Virus record (IMG/VR): IMGVR_UViG_3300015371_000087
Location: 1 to 40,755 of that record
DNA: 40,755 nt
Reading direction: 5' to 3' (one strand)
Source of the DNA: a virus
In this document: positions 5,941 through 39,855 of the stretch, one piece after another
Layout of the letters: each line of letters begins with the position of its first letter
Numbering within the stretch: the first letter of the stretch is position 1
Position numbers and translations under genes: made by a program
The notes under the pieces: model-generated
Told to the model about the DNA's origin: nothing
Seen by the model: the letters and a program-made list of their open reading frames with translations, nothing else
Database searches by the model: none

Positions 5941-6264
5941 ATGGCCGCAAAGTTGACGCAGGCGCAGTTCAGCAAGGCCGTTGCCGACGAGCTTGGCGAG
6001 GACTGGTCGAAGGCAGAGGTTGACGCCGTCCTCGAAACGGTCGGTGAGCTTCTGGCGAAGAACCTCAAGCTCAAGCGCGGCGAGCAGGGCGCGGTGATTC
6101 CGGTGAAGGGCATCGGTCGCGTCACCGTCAAGCGGACGCCTGCCAAGCCGAAGCGCATGGGTCGCAACCCGGCGACCGGCGAGGAAATGATGCTGAAGCC
6201 GAAGCCAGCCAGCACGCGGGTTCGCATCAGCCCGGAAAAGAAGCTGCGTGATGCCCTCTCCTAG
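5941..6264 (+). CDS. HU/IHF-family DNA-binding protein
   Basis: The 107-residue protein starts with a helical dimerisation region, then a beta arm containing GIGRVTVKRTPAKPKRMGRN and PATGEE. This matches the HU signature (GFGxF...R..RxGRNPxTGE), followed by the closing helix (PEKKLRDAL). HU-like proteins bend and compact DNA and help replication, recombination or packaging. ATG 5941 follows AAGGAG. Compared with bacterial HU it is slightly longer in the arm. Confidence 0.85.
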   Translation: MAAKLTQAQFSKAVADELGEDWSKAEVDAVLETVGELLAKNLKLKRGEQGAVIPVKGIGRVTVKRTPAKPKRMGRNPATGEEMMLKPKPASTRVRISPEKKLRDALS

Positions 6265-7622: not shown

Positions 7623-8342
7623 ATGAGGAAAGTTCGGGATCTGACCTACCGAAAGGACCAATGCGACCGGCGTTACGTCACCGACATGGCGCAGCGCCTC
7701 GTCGGGCAGCGAATCGTCGTTCAGATGCAGGACGGATCGGGCTGGCGTAGCGCCTGGCTGATGAAGGTCTATCCCAAGAACGACCGATTCAAGATCAGGT
7801 GGACCAAGTCCGGGGTGCCGACAACGTTGCGAGGTACCTGGCGAATCCACAACGCGGGCCTGTTTACCCAGGGGCAGAAACCTCGGCCAAACGGCTTGCA
7901 TGGCATGGCTCGCCATGCTAGTATTACCAGTACTACCAAACAAAGCCCTAGGAGGGCACAGATGGCCACTACCAAGTCCAAGTCCGGAGCCAAGCGCGGT
8001 GCCGGGCGTCCCAAGCAGAATGGCGGGATCGCATCGCTGAGCGATGCCCAGCGCAAGAAGATGGCGGGACAGATCGCCCGCCTTCGCAAGCAGAAGGTCA
8101 AGTGGGATGGCCCGGATGGCATCTGCGAGCAGGTCGGCATCAGCAGCGCGCTCCAGGGCCGCGAGCTTCTGCGCGAGTACGGCAACGAGGACATGGTGCG
8201 CGAGCGCCAGGTGTCCAGCGGCGGCTCGCGTTCGAAGTCCAAGGCGAGCGCGTCCAAGGCCAAGGCCAAGCCCGCTGCGAAGGGCAGCAAGCGCAAGGTG
8301 ACCGTGAAGCGCGGTCGCGGTCGGGCGTCAAACCCTTCGTAG
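7623..8342 (+). CDS. Long in-frame product: SH3-like domain fused to basic nucleoid-like protein
   Basis: The frame is open without a stop for 239 codons from ATG 7623. Residues about 25-85 form a beta-rich unit (VGQRIVVQMQDGSGW, DRFKIRW, LRGTWRIHNAGLF) resembling a small SH3/Tudor-like barrel. The rest is the Lys/Arg-rich protein that also has its own strong Shine-Dalgarno and ATG at 7962 and its own candidate promoter. Two nested products, long and short, are therefore likely. Alternatively the 7623 start is used little and the upstream part is a decayed gene. Confidence 0.5.
   Translation: MRKVRDLTYRKDQCDRRYVTDMAQRLVGQRIVVQMQDGSGWRSAWLMKVYPKNDRFKIRWTKSGVPTTLRGTWRIHNAGLFTQGQKPRPNGLHGMARHASITSTTKQSPRRAQMATTKSKSGAKRGAGRPKQNGGIASLSDAQRKKMAGQIARLRKQKVKWDGPDGICEQVGISSALQGRELLREYGNEDMVRERQVSSGGSRSKSKASASKAKAKPAAKGSKRKVTVKRGRGRASNPS
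7896..7924 (+). promoter_or_regulatory. Candidate sigma70-type promoter with palindrome in its spacer
   Basis: TTGCAT (7896-7901) and TAGTAT (7919-7924) are spaced by exactly 17 bases, and TGC precedes the -10 (extended -10). The spacer is occupied by the perfect 7-bp inverted repeat GCATGGC-TC-GCCATGC (7903-7918), well placed for a dimeric repressor. Transcription would start near 7931, giving a leader of about 31 bases before AGGAGG and ATG 7962. Confidence 0.55.
7962..8342 (+). CDS. Lys-rich nucleoid-like DNA-binding protein, 126 aa (short form)
   Basis: ATG at 7962 follows AGGAGG (7950-7955) and a promoter-like element. Residues about 1-25 are basic (GAKRGAGRPKQNG, containing an AT-hook-like GRP). 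Residues 25-75 form a compact helical region (RKKMAGQIARLRKQKVKWDG, then ICEQVGISSALQGRELL, helix-turn-helix-like). Residues 80-126 are a Lys/Ala/Ser tail ending in RGRGR. This layout resembles histone H1-like or Lsr2-like phage DNA-organising proteins. The stop TAG (8340-8342) follows a candidate -1 slippery heptamer. Confidence 0.65.
   Translation: MATTKSKSGAKRGAGRPKQNGGIASLSDAQRKKMAGQIARLRKQKVKWDGPDGICEQVGISSALQGRELLREYGNEDMVRERQVSSGGSRSKSKASASKAKAKPAAKGSKRKVTVKRGRGRASNPS
8330..8336 (+). other. Candidate -1 ribosomal frameshift site (A AAC CCT)
   Basis: AAACCCT fits X XXY YYZ in the zero frame of the nucleoid-like gene and lies one codon before its TAG stop. A -1 slip continues into an open frame of 94 codons that has no ATG, GTG or TTG of its own downstream of the stop. 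The fused short form would be about 219 residues. Confidence 0.45.
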
Positions 8343-8620
8343 GCCTGTCAGAACCGGACATCGCCCGGCTTGTCAATGGGAAGAAGCTGTATCAAATCAG
8401 CAAAATCTACACCACTGGCAAGTCGGACGGTCCGTCCGTCCTCATCGAACAAGAGCATCGCAACGTCAAGTTCAAGAGGTACCTTCTGGCAGGGCCGACG
8501 GAGATTCAAGTTGACGGCGAATGGGTGATCGGAGAACGGAAGCATGATCTCATTCAATTCTTCGCCGACCCTGGCGGACTGCGCACGGTCCGCGCCGAGG
8601 ACATCGTAGACATCAACTAG
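8330..8620 (+). CDS. Startless C-terminal domain, reached by -1 frameshift or CTG start
   Basis: This frame encodes a convincing soluble domain (SEPDIARLVNGKKLYQISKI, VLIEQEHRNVKFKRYLLAG, then EWVIGERKHDLIQFF), unlike the low-complexity shadow frames around it. No ordinary start codon exists between 8330 and its beginning; the only options are the CTG at 8346 or translation passing through the AAACCCT slippery site. An indel that split one ancestral gene is a further possibility. It ends 7 bases before the tRNA-Cys gene. Confidence 0.5.
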   Translation, partial: KPFVGLSEPDIARLVNGKKLYQISKIYTTGKSDGPSVLIEQEHRNVKFKRYLLAGPTEIQVDGEWVIGERKHDLIQFFADPGGLRTVRAEDIVDIN

Positions 8621-8627
8621 TGCGACT

Positions 8628-8700
8628 GGCCAGGTGGCAGAGAGGCTCAATGCGGGTGGTTGCAAACCACTTATTCGCGGGTTCAAATCCCGCCCTGGCC
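8628..8700 (+). tRNA. tRNA-Cys(GCA)
   Basis: A full cloverleaf is present: acceptor GGCCAGG 8628-8634 with CCTGGCC 8694-8700; short D stem 8637-8639 with 8651-8653; anticodon stem GGTGG 8655-8659 with CCACT 8667-8671; loop TTGCAAA with anticodon GCA at 8662-8664; T stem GCGGG/CCCGC with loop TTCAAAT (8682-8688). The CCA end is not encoded. It reads UGC, useful given the many Cys-rich small proteins of this phage. Confidence 0.92.
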
Positions 8701-8703
8701 TTT

Positions 8704-9832: not shown

Positions 9833-10050
9833 CTCGGTTCTCAGCCCGTATCGAGATAGATGACGGAACGACTGCCGAGCTAGCCCTGTTGCGCGACGAC
9901 AACGGAATCAGCTTTGTGTTCTATTGCGACGACCGCCCGCTCACCGCCGAAGATCCGCCAGAGTCATTGCAGGCGGCCATGTCGCAACTAGCACACGAGC
10001 TATCCGGATGGTACCGCGAACTTGACGGGAGGCTTCGTGAGCAAAGTTGA
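9829..10050 (+). CDS. Hypothetical acidic protein, 73 aa
   Basis: ATG overlaps the previous TGA. The protein has beta strands first (FSARIEIDDGTTAELALL, ISFVFYCDD) then a helix (LQAAMSQLAHELSGWYREL). It overlaps the helicase start by 14 bases, so it is probably translated together with it. A helicase partner is conceivable from position only. Confidence 0.6.
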   Translation: MTRFSARIEIDDGTTAELALLRDDNGISFVFYCDDRPLTAEDPPESLQAAMSQLAHELSGWYRELDGRLREQS

Positions 10051-15004: not shown

Positions 15005-16162
15005 ATGCCAACTCTCAAGTACGGCAACGTCAAGGACGTTGAGACCGATTTCAAGCAGGCACCCATCGGCATCTGGCGGCTCAAGGCTGCCGACGTCAAC
15101 CCGAAGTCCAAAGAGGGCAAGGGTGAGATGGTCGAGGTTCGGTTCGAGGTAACGCACGACAGCGACGGCAAGAAGGTCAAGGACAACTTCGCCTCGATCT
15201 TCTACTACGCACCATTGAGCGTGGATGATTGGGGCGGCGAAGTTCCGCACCCGTCGTGGCTGCGAAAGCTCAAGGAGCTTGTCCTGGCGTTCGGCCTCAA
15301 GGCCACCGGCGGCGATCTGTCGAAGATCGAGGGCAAGTCCTGTCTCGCACGGCTTGCCAAGGACGAGGACCAGGACGGCGAGTACCGTCCGCGCATCGCC
15401 AAGCTCATGTCGGTGAACGCGAGCGCCGATGAGGAGGAAGAGGGCGAAGAGGACGAGGGCGAAGAGGACGAGGAAGAAGTTGACCTCGATGAGATGGAGC
15501 GCGCAGACCTGAAGGCGTTCATCAAGGAGCAGGAACTCGACGTCAAGGTTCTCAAGAACGATTCCGATGACGAACTCCGCGACAAGATCCGCGAAGCTCT
15601 CGGTGAGGATGAGGACGAAGAGGGCGAGGACGAAGATGAGGAGGACGGCGACGAGGACGAAGATGAGGAGGTCACGTACACCAAGGCGCAGCTGAAGAAG
15701 CTCAAGAACGATGAGCTGAAGGAAGTCGCCAGCGGTCACGACATCGACCTGCCGTCCCGTCTGACGGCGAAGGCCAAGGAGTCGCTCATCGCCGCGATCC
15801 TCAAGGCCCAGGAAGCCTCCGACGATGAGGACGAGGACGAGGATGACGACGAAGAGGAAGTTGACCTCGACGAACTCAGCCGCGCCGAGTTGAAGGTGTT
15901 CATCAAGGAGCAGGAACTCGACGTCAAGGTCCTGAAGAACGACTCGGACGATGAGCTTCGCGACAAGGTGCGCGAGGCGCTCGGTGAGGAGGACGATGAG
16001 GAGGAAGAGGACGAGGACGAGGATGACGACGAGGACAACTACGACGACATGAGCGTCGGCGACCTGCGCGAAGAGTGCGGGAACCGCGAACTGGAGACCA
16101 AGGGCACCAAGAAGCAGCTGGTGGCAAGGCTCCGCAAGGACGATCAGACCGACCCGGTTTAG
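15005..16162 (+). CDS. SSB-like protein with acidic linkers and four SAP-like modules
   Basis: Residues 1-135 form a beta-rich domain (FKQAPIGIWRLKAADVNP, VEVRFEVTHDSDGKK) like phage single-strand-binding proteins that accompany Sak4. The remaining 250 residues alternate Asp/Glu-only linkers with helical SAP/Rho-N-like modules: two near-identical copies (core FIKEQELDVKVLKNDSDDEL, DNA at 15479-15610 and 15860-15991), a divergent one between them, and a C-terminal one (SVGDLREECGNRELETKGTK). SAP modules bind DNA or scaffold proteins; acidic tails recruit partners in SSBs. The gene ends before a strong hairpin terminator. Confidence 0.7.
   Translation: MPTLKYGNVKDVETDFKQAPIGIWRLKAADVNPKSKEGKGEMVEVRFEVTHDSDGKKVKDNFASIFYYAPLSVDDWGGEVPHPSWLRKLKELVLAFGLKATGGDLSKIEGKSCLARLAKDEDQDGEYRPRIAKLMSVNASADEEEEGEEDEGEEDEEEVDLDEMERADLKAFIKEQELDVKVLKNDSDDELRDKIREALGEDEDEEGEDEDEEDGDEDEDEEVTYTKAQLKKLKNDELKEVASGHDIDLPSRLTAKAKESLIAAILKAQEASDDEDEDEDDDEEEVDLDELSRAELKVFIKEQELDVKVLKNDSDDELRDKVREALGEEDDEEEEDEDEDDDEDNYDDMSVGDLREECGNRELETKGTKKQLVARLRKDDQTDPV
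15479..15991 (+). repeat. Intragenic duplication, two copies about 132 bp each
   Basis: Copy 1 begins near 15479 and copy 2 near 15860, a 381-base (127-codon) offset in frame. At protein level the 30-residue cores are nearly identical, while the DNA differs at several third positions, so the duplication is old and selected. Acidic GAGGAC/GATGAG tracts fill the space between. Confidence 0.85.
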
Positions 16163-16174
16163 TCGCCGCACCCA

Positions 16175-16209
16175 ACAGGCTGTCCCGGTTGCGCACCGGG
16201 GCAGCCTGT
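16175..16209 (+). terminator. Fifteen-bp hairpin terminator after the SSB-like gene
   Basis: ACAGGCTGTCCCGGT (16175-16189) pairs with ACCGGGGCAGCCTGT (16195-16209), one T-G pair, five-base loop. It is followed by CTGTCTGTCC, weakly T-containing. It lies 12 bases after the stop and just before the next ribosome site AAGGAGG, so downstream genes may need read-through or their own promoter. Confidence 0.75.
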
Positions 16210-16226
16210 CTGTCCAAGGAGGTTAG

Positions 16227-34204: not shown

Positions 34205-34950
34205 CTTGGAATGCGCAGTTGCTTACCGACAGTAAGCGAGCGTGGGTCGCGGAGGTTGTTGGCGTCTGCAATGATCTTCCATTTGTTGGGGTTGCCGTAC
34301 TTTGCGGAGGCGATCTTCTGAAGCGTGTCGCCCTTCTTGACGATGTAGATTTGCGGCTTGCGCGCACGGTTCTTCGGGCCAAGACGGCGCAGGATGTCAT
34401 TCGAAGATTTGTGTTGCCGGATCGTCAGCATACCGCCGCAGCGCATCCGCAGTTGGTACATATCGGAGCGAACTTCAATCGCTCGATCCCAGACGACGCT
34501 CTCGATCACCCATTGATGCACCTGGCCTGGCTGGTCGCCGCCGGTCATTGTGTCGTCGTGCGGGATTGCGCCGCCGCCATCAACTCCGAGTAGCGGCGGC
34601 TGCTGGTCGTCGCCTAGGCCGCAAAGGTTGCCGAGGACGTGGCACATATCCTCAGTTGCGTTGCAGCGGTCGAACTCGTCAGGGTCGCGACCATCGCGGA
34701 CTGCCGGGATCGAATGGAGCATGCCAAACGAGTAGTGGTCAATCACGAACGGGATCTCAACTGCAATCGGGTTGCGGCCTTCCCAAACAGTGAGTCCGAT
34801 GTTCTTCGGTCGGCCCTCGACCGTCCAACCGCCGTAGCCATCGACCACGAGCGCCGCGCCGTCGCCAAAGTAAGACTTGAACACCGCGTCGCTTTCGAGC
34901 GACGTGATCGTGAACATGGCCTTGGCGTGTGGCTCGCTATTGCGCGCCAT
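34201..34950 (-). CDS. LysM-containing baseplate hub protein
   Basis: The 249-residue protein ends with a clear LysM domain (IYIVKKGDTLQKIASAKYG, then NPNKWKIIADANNLRDPRSL and LRIPR). The N-terminal 190 residues are beta-rich without a named motif. In contractile phages, such LysM proteins (P2 gpX/XkdP-like) lie between tape measure and hub genes and bind baseplate or peptidoglycan. The order here is the same. Confidence 0.85.
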   Translation of the reverse strand: MARNSEPHAKAMFTITSLESDAVFKSYFGDGAALVVDGYGGWTVEGRPKNIGLTVWEGRNPIAVEIPFVIDHYSFGMLHSIPAVRDGRDPDEFDRCNATEDMCHVLGNLCGLGDDQQPPLLGVDGGGAIPHDDTMTGGDQPGQVHQWVIESVVWDRAIEVRSDMYQLRMRCGGMLTIRQHKSSNDILRRLGPKNRARKPQIYIVKKGDTLQKIASAKYGNPNKWKIIADANNLRDPRSLTVGKQLRIPR

Positions 34951-37049
34951 CAGTGATCAAGCCTCCTTCCGCCGCGCCGCGACTTTGTATCATTCTCCCA
35001 GTCAACGTACGCCTTGCCGATCTCACGACGCTCGACGTTGAGATGCACATGCACCGGTGGCAGCATATCCGACACCTTGAGCATCGACTCGATGGAACGC
35101 AGACCCGCCGTGCCTTCTGGCTGGAACCCGCGCGGCGTGATCTGCATGCCGGACGGTGTTGCTGACGCAATTTCCGGGCCAAGCTCGCCAACGATTGACG
35201 ACGTGCCCCACGGAATTGTGCCACCGCCTGCCTTGCCGCCGGGTAGCAAGCGTCGTCCAAAGACCTTTTTGAATACTGTGTTGGGTCCCTTTGCCGCTAG
35301 GTTGTATGCATCCTTTGCGATGTTCCTCGCGGTGTGTGGTGCGTCTTTTGGCTTTTGTGGCAGGTACTTCTTCAATACGGGGAACTGGTTGATGAGTTCC
35401 TTCTCAAGCTGGCTGCCGATGTAGAGCAGCGCCGCTGCGGTGAATGCCTTGCCGAAGATGTTGCCGATCACAGCACCGCGACCGGCAACCGCTGCACCAA
35501 CTGTGCCTTCGGCAGCGAACGCTGCTGACGCGCCAACGGCGAAGTTGCGCACAAATACAGACACCGCGAGCTTGCCCATTGTCGCGAAGATTTGGCGCTT
35601 GAAGAAGTAGGCAAGCACGAACAACTTTGTGCTCGGGTCCATCGCGAGCCACGTCTTGACGAACTGCACAAACCCGGCCTTGGCAACCTGAGCAAAGAAG
35701 ATCGCCGCCTTGCGGCCAAATGCCTGCGGGTCGCTGAAGAGAAGATCCAGGGAGTTGTTGAAGTCCGTGAAGAACTTGCTAACACGAGTCTGCCCGTTCG
35801 GTCCGACGATGACGCCGAGCCAGGCGTTGAAGCGGTTGACGATATTCGTCAGCTTGACGACTAGATCGCCGCCCTGCTTGTTTGAGCCGCTGAACACCGT
35901 TACGGTGAGCCGCCCGACTGCCTTGAGCAGACCCCACCAATCCTTGAAGTTCTGCACCGCGTTGGCGACGAAGTCCGCGAGCTTGGCGCGGTCACGCGAA
36001 CCCTTGCGGACGGACATCGACCATTTCTCGAACGAGTCGGCCCATTCGACAGCATATGGCGTAGCCACGCGCAGTAGCCGGAAGAGGGCGAACAACAGGT
36101 TAGTGCCGCCGCGCGTGACGGGACCGAACATCGACCGGAACGCCTTGCTGAAGTATGCGATGTTGCTGCGCACCTCAGGGCCACCGAGTTGCGAGAACAC
36201 ACCGGCCATGCCGTGCCGGACCGTCGCGGCGTTGAGATTCGTCTGGTGCGCGAACGTCGGCAACAACCGCTGGCCGACGCCAACACCGCCTTGCAGGATC
36301 TCAAAGAGGCTCGCTCGCGCCGGACCGGTCTTTTGTGTCCACGCCTTCTTCAAAGCGTTGATCGACCGGACTGCGTTCCAAGCCTGGATACCTCCCTGTG
36401 TCTGGATTACGCCGAGCAGTTTGGCGTTGGCTGCGGCTGCCTGCTTGGAGCCTGCGCCGTACTGCGCGATACTCAGGTTGAGCGCGTCCTGCGCCGTCTT
36501 GATCTTACCAAGCTGCCCGACAGCGGTGATACCGGCGATGCCGATGCCGGACAGCCCGACGATGAACGCCGTGAGACCGGCACCGCCGACGACACCGGCA
36601 CCGGTGATTGCCGAGCCAAGCGACGACGCCAATTCGATCAGCGCAGGCGAGAGATAGCCGCCAATCGTCAGCGCCGTAGACTTGACCTCGCCTGCGGTCA
36701 ACGACAAGCGATCCTTCCAGAAGCCCCAACGCTTGCCGAGCAGCCCGGCGCTCTTGGCGTTGCGACCGGACATGAAGCTCAACACACCGAGGTCGCGACT
36801 CGTCTGCCGAGCCTCATCGCCAACGTCGTTGATCTGACGGGCGAGTCGTCCCTCGATGAGAGCTAGCGCCGCATGTTGCTTCTCAAGGCGCGAACTGATG
36901 AGCTTGAGGACTTCCAGTTCCTCGCTCGCCTTCGACCCCTCGTATCCAACATCACGCACAGCCCGAGCAGCACCATGTGCTTCCTCCTTGAACTTGGCGG
37001 TGCCCTTAGCAATGAACTGGGCAATGATGTTTTCTTTACGAGAGGCCAT
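34950..37049 (-). CDS. Tail tape measure protein
   Basis: The 699-residue protein is helical and Ala/Gly-rich with hydrophobic stretches (about 145-180, AGVVGGAGLTAFIVGLSGIG; later VFVRNFAVGASAAFAAEG). Its N-terminus is charged and coiled-coil-like. It follows the tail chaperone gene (TAATG overlap), the standard place for the tape measure. The length implies a tail of about 100 nm using the usual 0.15 nm per residue. No peptidase or lysozyme motif is evident. Confidence 0.85.
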   Translation of the reverse strand: MASRKENIIAQFIAKGTAKFKEEAHGAARAVRDVGYEGSKASEELEVLKLISSRLEKQHAALALIEGRLARQINDVGDEARQTSRDLGVLSFMSGRNAKSAGLLGKRWGFWKDRLSLTAGEVKSTALTIGGYLSPALIELASSLGSAITGAGVVGGAGLTAFIVGLSGIGIAGITAVGQLGKIKTAQDALNLSIAQYGAGSKQAAAANAKLLGVIQTQGGIQAWNAVRSINALKKAWTQKTGPARASLFEILQGGVGVGQRLLPTFAHQTNLNAATVRHGMAGVFSQLGGPEVRSNIAYFSKAFRSMFGPVTRGGTNLLFALFRLLRVATPYAVEWADSFEKWSMSVRKGSRDRAKLADFVANAVQNFKDWWGLLKAVGRLTVTVFSGSNKQGGDLVVKLTNIVNRFNAWLGVIVGPNGQTRVSKFFTDFNNSLDLLFSDPQAFGRKAAIFFAQVAKAGFVQFVKTWLAMDPSTKLFVLAYFFKRQIFATMGKLAVSVFVRNFAVGASAAFAAEGTVGAAVAGRGAVIGNIFGKAFTAAALLYIGSQLEKELINQFPVLKKYLPQKPKDAPHTARNIAKDAYNLAAKGPNTVFKKVFGRRLLPGGKAGGGTIPWGTSSIVGELGPEIASATPSGMQITPRGFQPEGTAGLRSIESMLKVSDMLPPVHVHLNVERREIGKAYVDWENDTKSRRGGRRLDH

Positions 37050-37297
37050 TATTTGGTGCTATTCGTACTCGATCCTTGCTGACGCCTGTTGCCCTTTTCC
37101 AAAGCCTGGGAGAGTTCGCGGATGATGAATTTTGCCTGTAGCTCGCTCCTTTCTCTGTCAATCTCGATCATCCGCGCTCCGATGGTACGAAGGAAGTGCA
37201 TCTCAACCTCATCGTTGCAGTTGACGAATAGCAGCGGGTCCATTCCCGCGCAGGCCGCCATTGCGATGAAGGTTGTATCATCGGAGCTTAGGATTCC
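37049..37297 (-). CDS. Frameshift extension of the tail assembly chaperone
   Basis: This frame continues the chaperone after a -1 slip at the run of five G (37296-37300, minus strand reading CTGGGGGAATCC) just before the TAA at 37288-37290. The sequence continues smoothly (ILSSDDTTFIAMAACAGMDP) into a helical charged end and stops at 37049. The fused protein would be about 283 residues. An internal ATG at 37261 could give a 70-residue independent product, but the G/GT arrangement of tail phages favours frameshifting. Confidence 0.7.
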   Translation of the reverse strand, partial: GILSSDDTTFIAMAACAGMDPLLFVNCNDEVEMHFLRTIGARMIEIDRERSELQAKFIIRELSQALEKGNRRQQGSSTNSTK

Positions 37298-37899
37298 CCC
37301 AGGATTTCCTCCAGTACGTTGAGGCCGCTCTTGCTGGGGTCGCGCATCCAGCGTGCGATCCGCTGCGCGTGCATCGTCACGGCGGTCGGGTTCTCAACCC
37401 ATTCGCCTTCCTGGCCGCCCTCCTTCTTCTCACCGAAGAGGAAGTTGATCGTCTTGTAGACGCTATCGACCTTCGGGCTGACGGTCGGGTCATCGAACAC
37501 GCCGAGGACGTGAGCGGCGCGGTCGTAGCCAACCTTGCCGTTGTCATCTTCGAGCGGCACTCGGTCGCCGGACTCCGGGTCGATCATGTGCAGGCCAACG
37601 GCTGCCTTTGCGATCAGGTCGAGGTCCGCATGGATCTGATCGGACTCGCCAGCGCGGATCTTGCGAGCCGCGTTCTCCGACATGACGTCGAGTTCCTTTG
37701 CGCCAAGGACGCGGTACTCAGCGATCAGGTCGCCATCCCACGAGGGGACATCGATGAACAGGTGAGACTCCCGCTCCGCACGCTTTGCCTTGGCCCTATC
37801 CAACAGGCTCTTGGAGCGTGCGATAGCGGGTGACTCACCGGGAACTGCCGGAACCGTGCTCACCGGTTCCATTTCGTCGTTGTGAACATCTGTGGCCAT
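37288..37899 (-). CDS. Tail assembly chaperone, short form (gpG-like)
   Basis: The 203-residue protein lies between tail tube and tape measure. It has an acidic N-terminus, a helical body (ARKIRAGESDQIHADLDLIA) and a C-terminus ending near the slippery run. It coats the tape measure during tail assembly. The length compares well with chaperones of actinobacterial phages. ATG 37899 has a GGAGC-type site upstream on the minus strand. Confidence 0.75.
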   Translation of the reverse strand: MATDVHNDEMEPVSTVPAVPGESPAIARSKSLLDRAKAKRAERESHLFIDVPSWDGDLIAEYRVLGAKELDVMSENAARKIRAGESDQIHADLDLIAKAAVGLHMIDPESGDRVPLEDDNGKVGYDRAAHVLGVFDDPTVSPKVDSVYKTINFLFGEKKEGGQEGEWVENPTAVTMHAQRIARWMRDPSKSGLNVLEEILGES

Positions 37900-37915
37900 T
37901 CTGTGCTCCTATCTG

Positions 37916-38347
37916 CTAGCCGACTTCGCCGTCGGGGTTGATGACAATCTCGAACATCGCCACGTCGGACGAGTCCGAGTCGGCATTCGGCTGGTTGTAG
38001 CCGATCAGGATGCCGGTGATGACGATAGGCACGCCAAAGACGTTCGCATCGTCGTCGAGGTACAACTTGGTTGCCGTCACACGGCCGCGACCGACAGCGG
38101 TCGAGAGCCAGTGGGCGTGCTGGTGGTCCCGGTCGAGGTCATAGTCACGGCTGACCGTGACATCCTCGATGGTGACGGGACCGCCGACAGCCACTTGCTT
38201 GCCCATGCCGCCGCGCCGGTGCTTGGTGTTGTCTGCGGTGACATTGCCGCCCTCCCAGGTATCGAAGATACCAAGGTCGCGGGTTTCGCCACGATACGTG
38301 ACAGAAACCGTGATCTGGTTGTTGCGTGCTGAAACAGTACCAGGCAT
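37916..38347 (-). CDS. Tail tube protein
   Basis: The 143-residue beta-rich protein (NNQITVSVTYRGETRDLGIF, HRRGGMGKQVAVGG, ending VAMFEIVINPDGEVG) follows the sheath gene, as expected for a contractile tail. The size fits the tube family of small single-domain proteins. No sequence motif is diagnostic by eye; the call rests on size, beta content and position. Confidence 0.75.
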   Translation of the reverse strand: MPGTVSARNNQITVSVTYRGETRDLGIFDTWEGGNVTADNTKHRRGGMGKQVAVGGPVTIEDVTVSRDYDLDRDHQHAHWLSTAVGRGRVTATKLYLDDDANVFGVPIVITGILIGYNQPNADSDSSDVAMFEIVINPDGEVG

Positions 38348-38361
38348 AGTTCACTCCTTTC

Positions 38362-39855
38362 CTAACCGGGGATCTGTTCCGTGACGAGGTACTTGACAAT
38401 CTCGATGTCCACTTCCTCGCCAAAGGGCGACATGCGGAGCGAGATCACCGCGTGCAACTCGTTGTTGGCAATCGTCGTCGGCGTGTTGACCGACGGACCG
38501 ACGTCAACCTTGAAGGCGTCGTCGGGAGTCGCGCCAAAGAGCGACCCTGCCAGGTAGAACGGCATGCACGCCTCACCGATGAGGGCTGCGCCGAACTCGT
38601 TGATCATGCGGTTGCCGCCGTCGATCTGACGGAAGATGAATCGCTCACCGACTGCGAGCGCCTCGGACAGAACGGCCCTTTGCAGGAAGCTGTTGCTGAG
38701 AGCGATCCACTTCGGATCGGCGGACGGGTCAGCGGTCGTGCGCCAACCGTAGACCTTGCGCGATCCGTACTTGTCGACAATCACGTTTGCGCCAGCCGTG
38801 TTGATCGACTGCCGCGAGGCGTCGTCGTACGTCTGGCTCAGCGACAGCACGGTGTTGAACACACCGCGCCCGCCTGCGGCTGGCTCGTTGGGCGAGTAGC
38901 CGAGTCCCATGTTGCGCGCAAACAGACCGGCGACGGCACAGCTGGGCGGAACCAGCCGTGTGCTGCCGGACGTCACGCCAGGAATCCGCAACCATGGGAC
39001 AAAGATCCCCGAGAAGCGGCTCCGCTTGGTTGATGTGTCGATGACGAGCGGCGGCTGCGCCGTGATCGTCGCCACCGTTGCGGTATCCGGACCGTCGATG
39101 AGGGCGATCCTGTTGCGCGCGAGCGCATGGTTTGCGACCTGAACCTGACCAGCGGTCGTAGTGCGACCCGGTGCGAACACTGTGCCCGGACCGAGGTCAA
39201 CGCCGAGCCTGTCGAGTCCGGCCTGCCAGCTGGCATCGACAATTGACGCGAAGTCAAGGTTGCCGCCAGCCAGGGCGAACGTCGCAGCGTTCGGGTCGTT
39301 GGCGCTGGCACCGGCATCGACGAACGTGATGTACTTCGACGTGGTGGTGGACCAGAGGATCGCCGCCTGATCATCGAGCAGGTAGGGCGACTCTTCCAGG
39401 ATCACCGCCGCGTCGGTCTGGACACGGACCAGGAAGTACCCGGCAGGAATGTTGGAGTCCTGCGCGTTGGTCCGGATCACGACGTTGAGGTCGTTGCCGT
39501 AGTCGCCCGGACCCTTGGCGAACGCCGTCAGTGTTGCGAGCGCACCGGCGTCGGTGACGCTGATCGTCGCGGTTGCCGCCGCCGGTCCGACAACGCGCCC
39601 AACGTACAGAGCGTAGCCGCCTTCCTTGAAGAAGGTTTCGGCACAGTCGTACGCTGTGATCGCGTTGGCGTAGTTGCGCTTGCTGTAGGCGAACTTTGCC
39701 TCATACTCCGCCATGCTGTGGACGGCATCCTGCGCCGTCACAACGAGCGGACCAGACTCCGTGATACCGACCATGAAGCCGGTACCTACATCGGTCGGGA
39801 TTGCCGTGACCGGCGCAGCTTCGCGGGTCGTGATGTTGACGCCAGGCCTGGTCAT
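38362..39855 (-). CDS. Tail sheath protein
   Basis: The 497-residue protein begins PGVNITTRE and has GFMVGITESGPLVVTAQDA, YANAITAYDCAETFFKEGG and YVGRVVGPAA, sequence traits of contractile tail sheaths. The C-terminal half (SLSQTYDDASRQSINTAGAN, WIALSNSFLQRAVLSEALA) is the conserved polymerising core. It shows that the phage is a myovirus. It overlaps its upstream neighbour by 4 bases (ATGA). Confidence 0.9.
   Translation of the reverse strand: MTRPGVNITTREAAPVTAIPTDVGTGFMVGITESGPLVVTAQDAVHSMAEYEAKFAYSKRNYANAITAYDCAETFFKEGGYALYVGRVVGPAAATATISVTDAGALATLTAFAKGPGDYGNDLNVVIRTNAQDSNIPAGYFLVRVQTDAAVILEESPYLLDDQAAILWSTTTSKYITFVDAGASANDPNAATFALAGGNLDFASIVDASWQAGLDRLGVDLGPGTVFAPGRTTTAGQVQVANHALARNRIALIDGPDTATVATITAQPPLVIDTSTKRSRFSGIFVPWLRIPGVTSGSTRLVPPSCAVAGLFARNMGLGYSPNEPAAGGRGVFNTVLSLSQTYDDASRQSINTAGANVIVDKYGSRKVYGWRTTADPSADPKWIALSNSFLQRAVLSEALAVGERFIFRQIDGGNRMINEFGAALIGEACMPFYLAGSLFGATPDDAFKVDVGPSVNTPTTIANNELHAVISLRMSPFGEEVDIEIVKYLVTEQIPG

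Follow-up and report, generated by a model that had tools for sequence, protein, structure and literature searches.

A startless domain in the -1 frame of a basic phage gene and its likely fusion by frameshifting at a proline codon

Known frameshift genes and the present locus

Programmed -1 frameshifting is a known kind of event, and the cases annotated in phages are almost all tail-chaperone or capsid/tail genes; of the cases counted in a survey of SEA-PHAGES annotations, 2397 were tail chaperones and 79 were hypothetical genes (PMC10885494). In the tail chaperones (gpG/gpGT), a -1 shift near the 3' end of the first ORF adds a C-terminal domain, and the arrangement is conserved across phages. 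The Listeria phages PSA, A118 and A500 shift frame at proline CCC codons, which partly lie directly before the stop codon, and systems of the IS911/dnaX type combine a slip site with a strong structure that follows within the mRNA (PMC5009743).

The window analysed here is a 40,755-nucleotide contig of an uncultivated IMG/VR phage (IMGVR_UViG_3300015371_000087). Its minus strand has the genes of a contractile tail and its plus strand a replication module, in which an SNF2-type helicase (10022), an exonuclease (13188), a Sak4-like protein (14090), DnaE (18731) and ThyX (22424) follow each other in a gene order that matches several actinobacteriophages. Upstream of this module, a short basic gene (7962..8342, plus strand) runs into a domain in its -1 frame (8333..8620, plus strand) that has no start codon. 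Similar to the tail chaperones, the shift would occur near the 3' end of the first ORF and add a C-terminal domain that recurs in other phages. However, this is not a tail gene: rather than taking the tail-chaperone position between tail tube and tape measure, it precedes the helicase at 10022, and the tail genes occupy 34950-39855 on the minus strand. Moreover, the N-terminal part is basic and of helix-turn-helix (HTH) type, as far as this can be assigned, and the core of the slip site is C_CCY rather than XXXYYYZ or GGGGGAA. With the Listeria phages the locus shares a proline slip codon just 5' of the stop, but their CCC sites shift +1 and yield capsid or tail proteins, whereas the present shift is -1 and its product does not look structural. 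With IS911 and dnaX it shares a strong structure 3' of the site; those systems use tandem heptamers, whereas the present sites do not conserve a heptamer and are mostly separated from the structure by about 25 nt.

We consider it very likely that the locus is one gene in two frames and that a programmed -1 ribosomal frameshift adds the domain; data on the protein, from ribosome profiling or on efficiency are not at hand. What appears to be new is the conserved use of frameshifting by a family of apparently non-structural, DNA-binding genes across divergent phages, as well as a C_CCY site that does not require a heptamer. No description of a frameshift in this family was found in the literature, as far as open-licence papers are concerned.

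The two frames and their relatives

The zero-frame gene starts with an ATG at 7962 preceded by AGGAGG and encodes a short product of 126 aa with a net charge of +23, a Lys/Ala-rich tail and the C-terminus -RGRASNPS*. Its 3' end reads GCG TCA AAC CCT TCG TAG, with the stop (8340..8342, plus strand) one codon past the slip codon. Direct similarity identifies homologues in the two closest relatives (L133/G003 and L134/G001), and similar basic genes precede every copy of the domain. The evidence for an HTH fold comes from relatives rather than from the window: two of 14 zero-frame proteins match the phage family phrog_686 ('HTH DNA binding protein', best 2.7e-6) and three relatives match PF13384 (up to 0.005), while the window's protein reaches only a weak 0.045 to phrog_11615 and the structure model is weak as well (pLDDT 60). 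Most zero-frame proteins, including that of the window, have no significant family match. The protein is thus possibly of DNA-binding type with an HTH fold. Given the matches of two relatives to phrog_686 and the weak score of the window's protein, the label "nucleoid-like" given by the original prediction remains plausible but unproven. A gene for an HU-family DNA-binding protein (5941-6264; PF00216, 6.5e-13) is located 1.7 kb upstream of the frameshift gene.

Upstream of the ATG, the region 7623-7961 is in frame with the gene at 7962 without an intervening stop and includes a small domain (7623-7868); the same holds for L132, L133 and L134. The protein may have a longer N-terminal form, or initiation may be internal. 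In L132, the upstream domain and the basic gene are separated by an in-frame HNH-like stretch (CEIEDCSDKPEIHHIDGDNGNNDLSNIRFLCKRHHAQLH). A relationship between the upstream domain and the C-terminal domain was considered and rejected (hhalign, 3% probability).

The -1 frame domain comprises 95 codons, and its translation from the slip site reads KPFVGLSEPD...EDIVDIN*. The predictions that A_AAC_CCT stands in phase for a -1 slip one codon before the TAG, and that the -1 frame stays open beyond this stop, proved correct at 8330-8336 and up to 8620, respectively. The domain was also said to lack ATG, GTG and TTG altogether, which applies to the first 39 codons past CCC; the one GTG of this frame is codon 64 after CCC, at about 8525, where a start would come far too late for the domain. 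Towards the 5' side, the -1 frame is open as far as a GTG at 8102, including 60 codons 5' of CCC without a start codon, and this openness is a shadow of the GC-rich zero-frame gene. The AlphaFold2 model of the domain has a pLDDT of 92.3 and predicts a small, beta-barrel-like fold with one helix and seven strands. Neither sequence searches in Pfam, PHROGs and PDB nor fold searches with Foldseek (best E 0.28 in PDB and 0.027 in BFVD) returned a convincing relative, and a search of bacterial genomes found nothing. The C-terminal domain thus appears to be new, and without a start codon it is invisible to annotation by gene callers. At the predicted fusion junction (...ASNPFVG...), a peptide reading across would be ...RASNPFVGLSEPDIAR... 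/ ...ASNPFVGLSEPDIAR. Directly after the domain follows a tRNA-Cys (GCA) at 8628-8701, which is scored as a tRNA by Rfam, too.

To collect relatives, an alignment of the phage DNA polymerase was used, which gave 80 related IMG/VR loci, and of 50 related phage records searched as a whole, 12 contained a homologue of the domain. Further loci were added by profile and pattern searches, and removal of near-identical copies left 26 distinct domain-bearing loci. Comparison of these sequences establishes the frame arrangement: in 25 of the 26 a gene for a mostly basic protein is followed by the startless domain in its -1 frame. These 25 loci form 12 groups at 60% domain identity, and their zero-frame proteins end in -(N/S/D/R)-P-(0-2 residues)-stop. 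The remaining locus (L134 in G001) has AAA AGC TAA followed by the domain in the +1 frame, with the TAA overlapping the NPF codons, which reflects either a different direction or type of shift or an indel in the contig. The 129-kb phage G011 carries two paralogous copies of the frameshift gene (L126, L127), both of which read CGC CCT TAG with a hairpin immediately downstream. DNA and protein searches with the window, both parts of its gene, two further copies of the domain and one of the first gene gave no match in named phages.

The transition codon and competing explanations

The position of the frame switch can be narrowed down by stop codons. On the 5' side, the domain frame is closed by a TAA directly before CCC in L156, by a TGA two codons before it in L106 and by stops four codons before it in L101, L102 and L104; on the 3' side, the zero frame ends directly after CCY in L133, L126 and L127. 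If the site is shared, only the CCY codon remains for the transition. Substitutions among the relatives point to the same switch, with 57-63% in the third position of the zero frame just upstream and 40-48% in the third position of the domain frame downstream, which indicates that each frame is under coding selection on its own side, although the pairs are not independent and no formal test was applied.

In line with this, CCC plus a pyrimidine (8333-8336 in the window) is the sole invariant nucleotide stretch, present in 25 of 25 loci. At this site the zero frame reads CCY in all of them, without a single CCA or CCG, whereas CCY accounts for only 34% of proline codons. Of the 26 loci with the domain, 25 have NNC-CCY among the three final codons, compared to 3 of the 151 other ORFs in these loci. 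The zero-frame protein is poorly conserved apart from two invariant residues, and the proline is one of them; it is likewise among the two invariant residues of the domain frame. Judged from the sequence, the conserved C_CCY is a proline codon that would be able to re-pair with CCC after a -1 slip. Inspection of the aligned sites did not reveal a shared Shine-Dalgarno-like stimulator upstream.

The comparison therefore strongly supports the central proposal of the original prediction, a programmed -1 frameshift from the basic protein into the startless domain, but shifts the emphasis from the heptamer to C_CCY. A relative that keeps both frames and loses the heptamer had been named as a refutation; this loss is found in 17 relatives, with the C_CCY core intact in each. 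A relative with a single continuous frame, likewise named, was not found.

From this pattern we infer a ribosomal slip that the majority of ribosomes do not make. Most would read 7962-8342 and terminate at the TAG, giving the 126-aa basic protein of DNA-binding type, while a fraction would slip by -1 at the proline codon CCT (8334-8336). In our model the proline tRNA leaves CCU and pairs with the overlapping CCC (8333-8335), and the slipped ribosomes would continue with TTC GTA GGC... to 8620, yielding a predicted fusion product of 219 aa. A hairpin 3' of the site may stimulate the slip, and the extra domain may alter the action of the DNA-binding part, e.g. by recruiting a partner to the phage DNA; both are likewise inferences.

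Within a true frameshift, the single-tRNA step competes with standard tandem slippage of two tRNAs on A_AAC_CCT (8330..8336), an alternative that we regard as unlikely for the family but still worth keeping. The window and seven other loci have AAACCCY, and for the window itself, where the phase is right, tandem slippage cannot be excluded. However, an XXXYYYZ heptamer is confined to these 8 of 25 loci. The other 17 lack three equal bases before CCC (CAA, AAG, GAG, GAA, GGA, GCG or TAA instead), and their -1 codons, among them GCG, GGA, GAG, AAG and TAA, are unreadable for the zero-frame tRNA (e.g. CGC to GCG, AAC to TAA). For this reason, re-pairing of a single proline tRNA is the simplest model that covers all sites. 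We lean, by a small degree only, towards regarding the family as a distinct -1 class in which a lone proline tRNA moves from CCY to CCC beside a stop codon; tandem pairing on a heptamer would not be involved, a very stable hairpin some 25 nt further 3' would help, and the outcome would be two forms of a phage DNA-binding protein. A standard heptamer search would overlook the shift site in most family members, and the natural variation among the members lends itself to tests of -1 slippage by a single tRNA at proline codons and of RNA stimulators at a distance.

Much less probable is a gene of its own for the domain, translationally coupled to the first gene and with a non-standard start near the stop of the latter. 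The frames overlap by just a few codons, a layout known for coupled genes, and the window has a CTG at codon 4. This CTG (8346), a demonstrated start at which was to refute the original prediction, is not common to the relatives, and there is no start position after CCC that the lineages share; nor does any locus have a start codon between the last domain-frame stop and CCC. Besides, coupling would require neither CCC nor a downstream hairpin, whereas the conserved element is a proline codon in phase with both frames and always CCY.

We give even less weight to transcriptional slippage on the short C run, for which the presence of CCC or CCCC at the site would speak. To our knowledge, runs of three or four C are far shorter than those on which transcriptional slippage occurs, and the covarying hairpin and the phase of the proline codon point to translation. 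Indels from assembly or sequencing that split one continuous gene can practically be dismissed, since, even though the contigs are metagenomic and L134 differs in frame, the identical break codon recurs in 25 distinct loci from many metagenomes with CCC+Y alone invariant and with the stops of both frames on the expected sides.

The downstream hairpin and a second frameshift site

Besides the frameshift site itself, the window has a candidate stimulator, a long irregular hairpin (8355..8438, plus strand), with a strong counterpart in 19 relatives. The folded stretch 8353-8442 reaches -39.2 kcal/mol and a z of -5.7, the lowest of ten stretches tried. Over all 25 sites, the 80 nt from +8 (+8..+88) have a mean z of -4.1, with most members of two large groups between about -3 and -7.5, while 1-3% of control windows fall below -4. 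In most lineages the counted 5' arm of the hairpin starts 28-31 nt after CCC, and its base is about 25 nt from the slip codon. No general signal emerged when the upstream 40 or 57 nt or the first 50 nt on the downstream side were folded, and in the window the stretch 8337-8420 alone folds in an ordinary way because it cuts through the long hairpin. A background tiling of the window also brought up a very stable 80-nt stretch at 16140-16220 (z -6.9).

For the relatives, alignment establishes covariation of the hairpin. Across 19 lineages, 89% of the cells of 17 hairpin pairs are paired, compared to 26-44% with one arm slid; eight pairs change on both sides, giving 38 double-change cells as against at most 13 when slid. 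None of 500 shuffles reached these pairing and covariation scores. It has to be considered that the arm register was chosen from the folds, which somewhat favours the unslid version, and that the covariation covers the hairpins of the 19 relatives, whereas the window's own version rests on the stability z only. The arms also encode conserved G-D and G-R-R residues; this coding constraint holds part of the arm sequence but does not explain the paired changes. Rfam has no family that covers the signal. An outer helix closing a three-way junction appeared in some folds only and was too inconsistent to be claimed.

The hairpin is not universal. The distal form is absent in L090, which has no clear signal, and in both G011 copies, and in the latter as well as in L132 and L133 a hairpin is located near the slip codon, instead of or besides the distal one. 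The spacing of described stimulators is usually 5-9 nt and in a minority of cases 12-15 nt (PMC5009743). The distance observed here in most lineages is beyond both ranges and counts against the reading as a stimulator. With such a long spacing, the mode of action of the hairpin remains open, and an unresolved lower stem, queued ribosomes or a role other than frameshifting come into question.

The phage probably has two frameshift genes, as the minus strand carries a conventional tail-chaperone-like -1 site, GGGGGAA, in phase at about 37301-37295, where the ORF 37288-37899 ends with CTG GGG GAA TCC TAA. A second frame crosses this site and is open to 37049.
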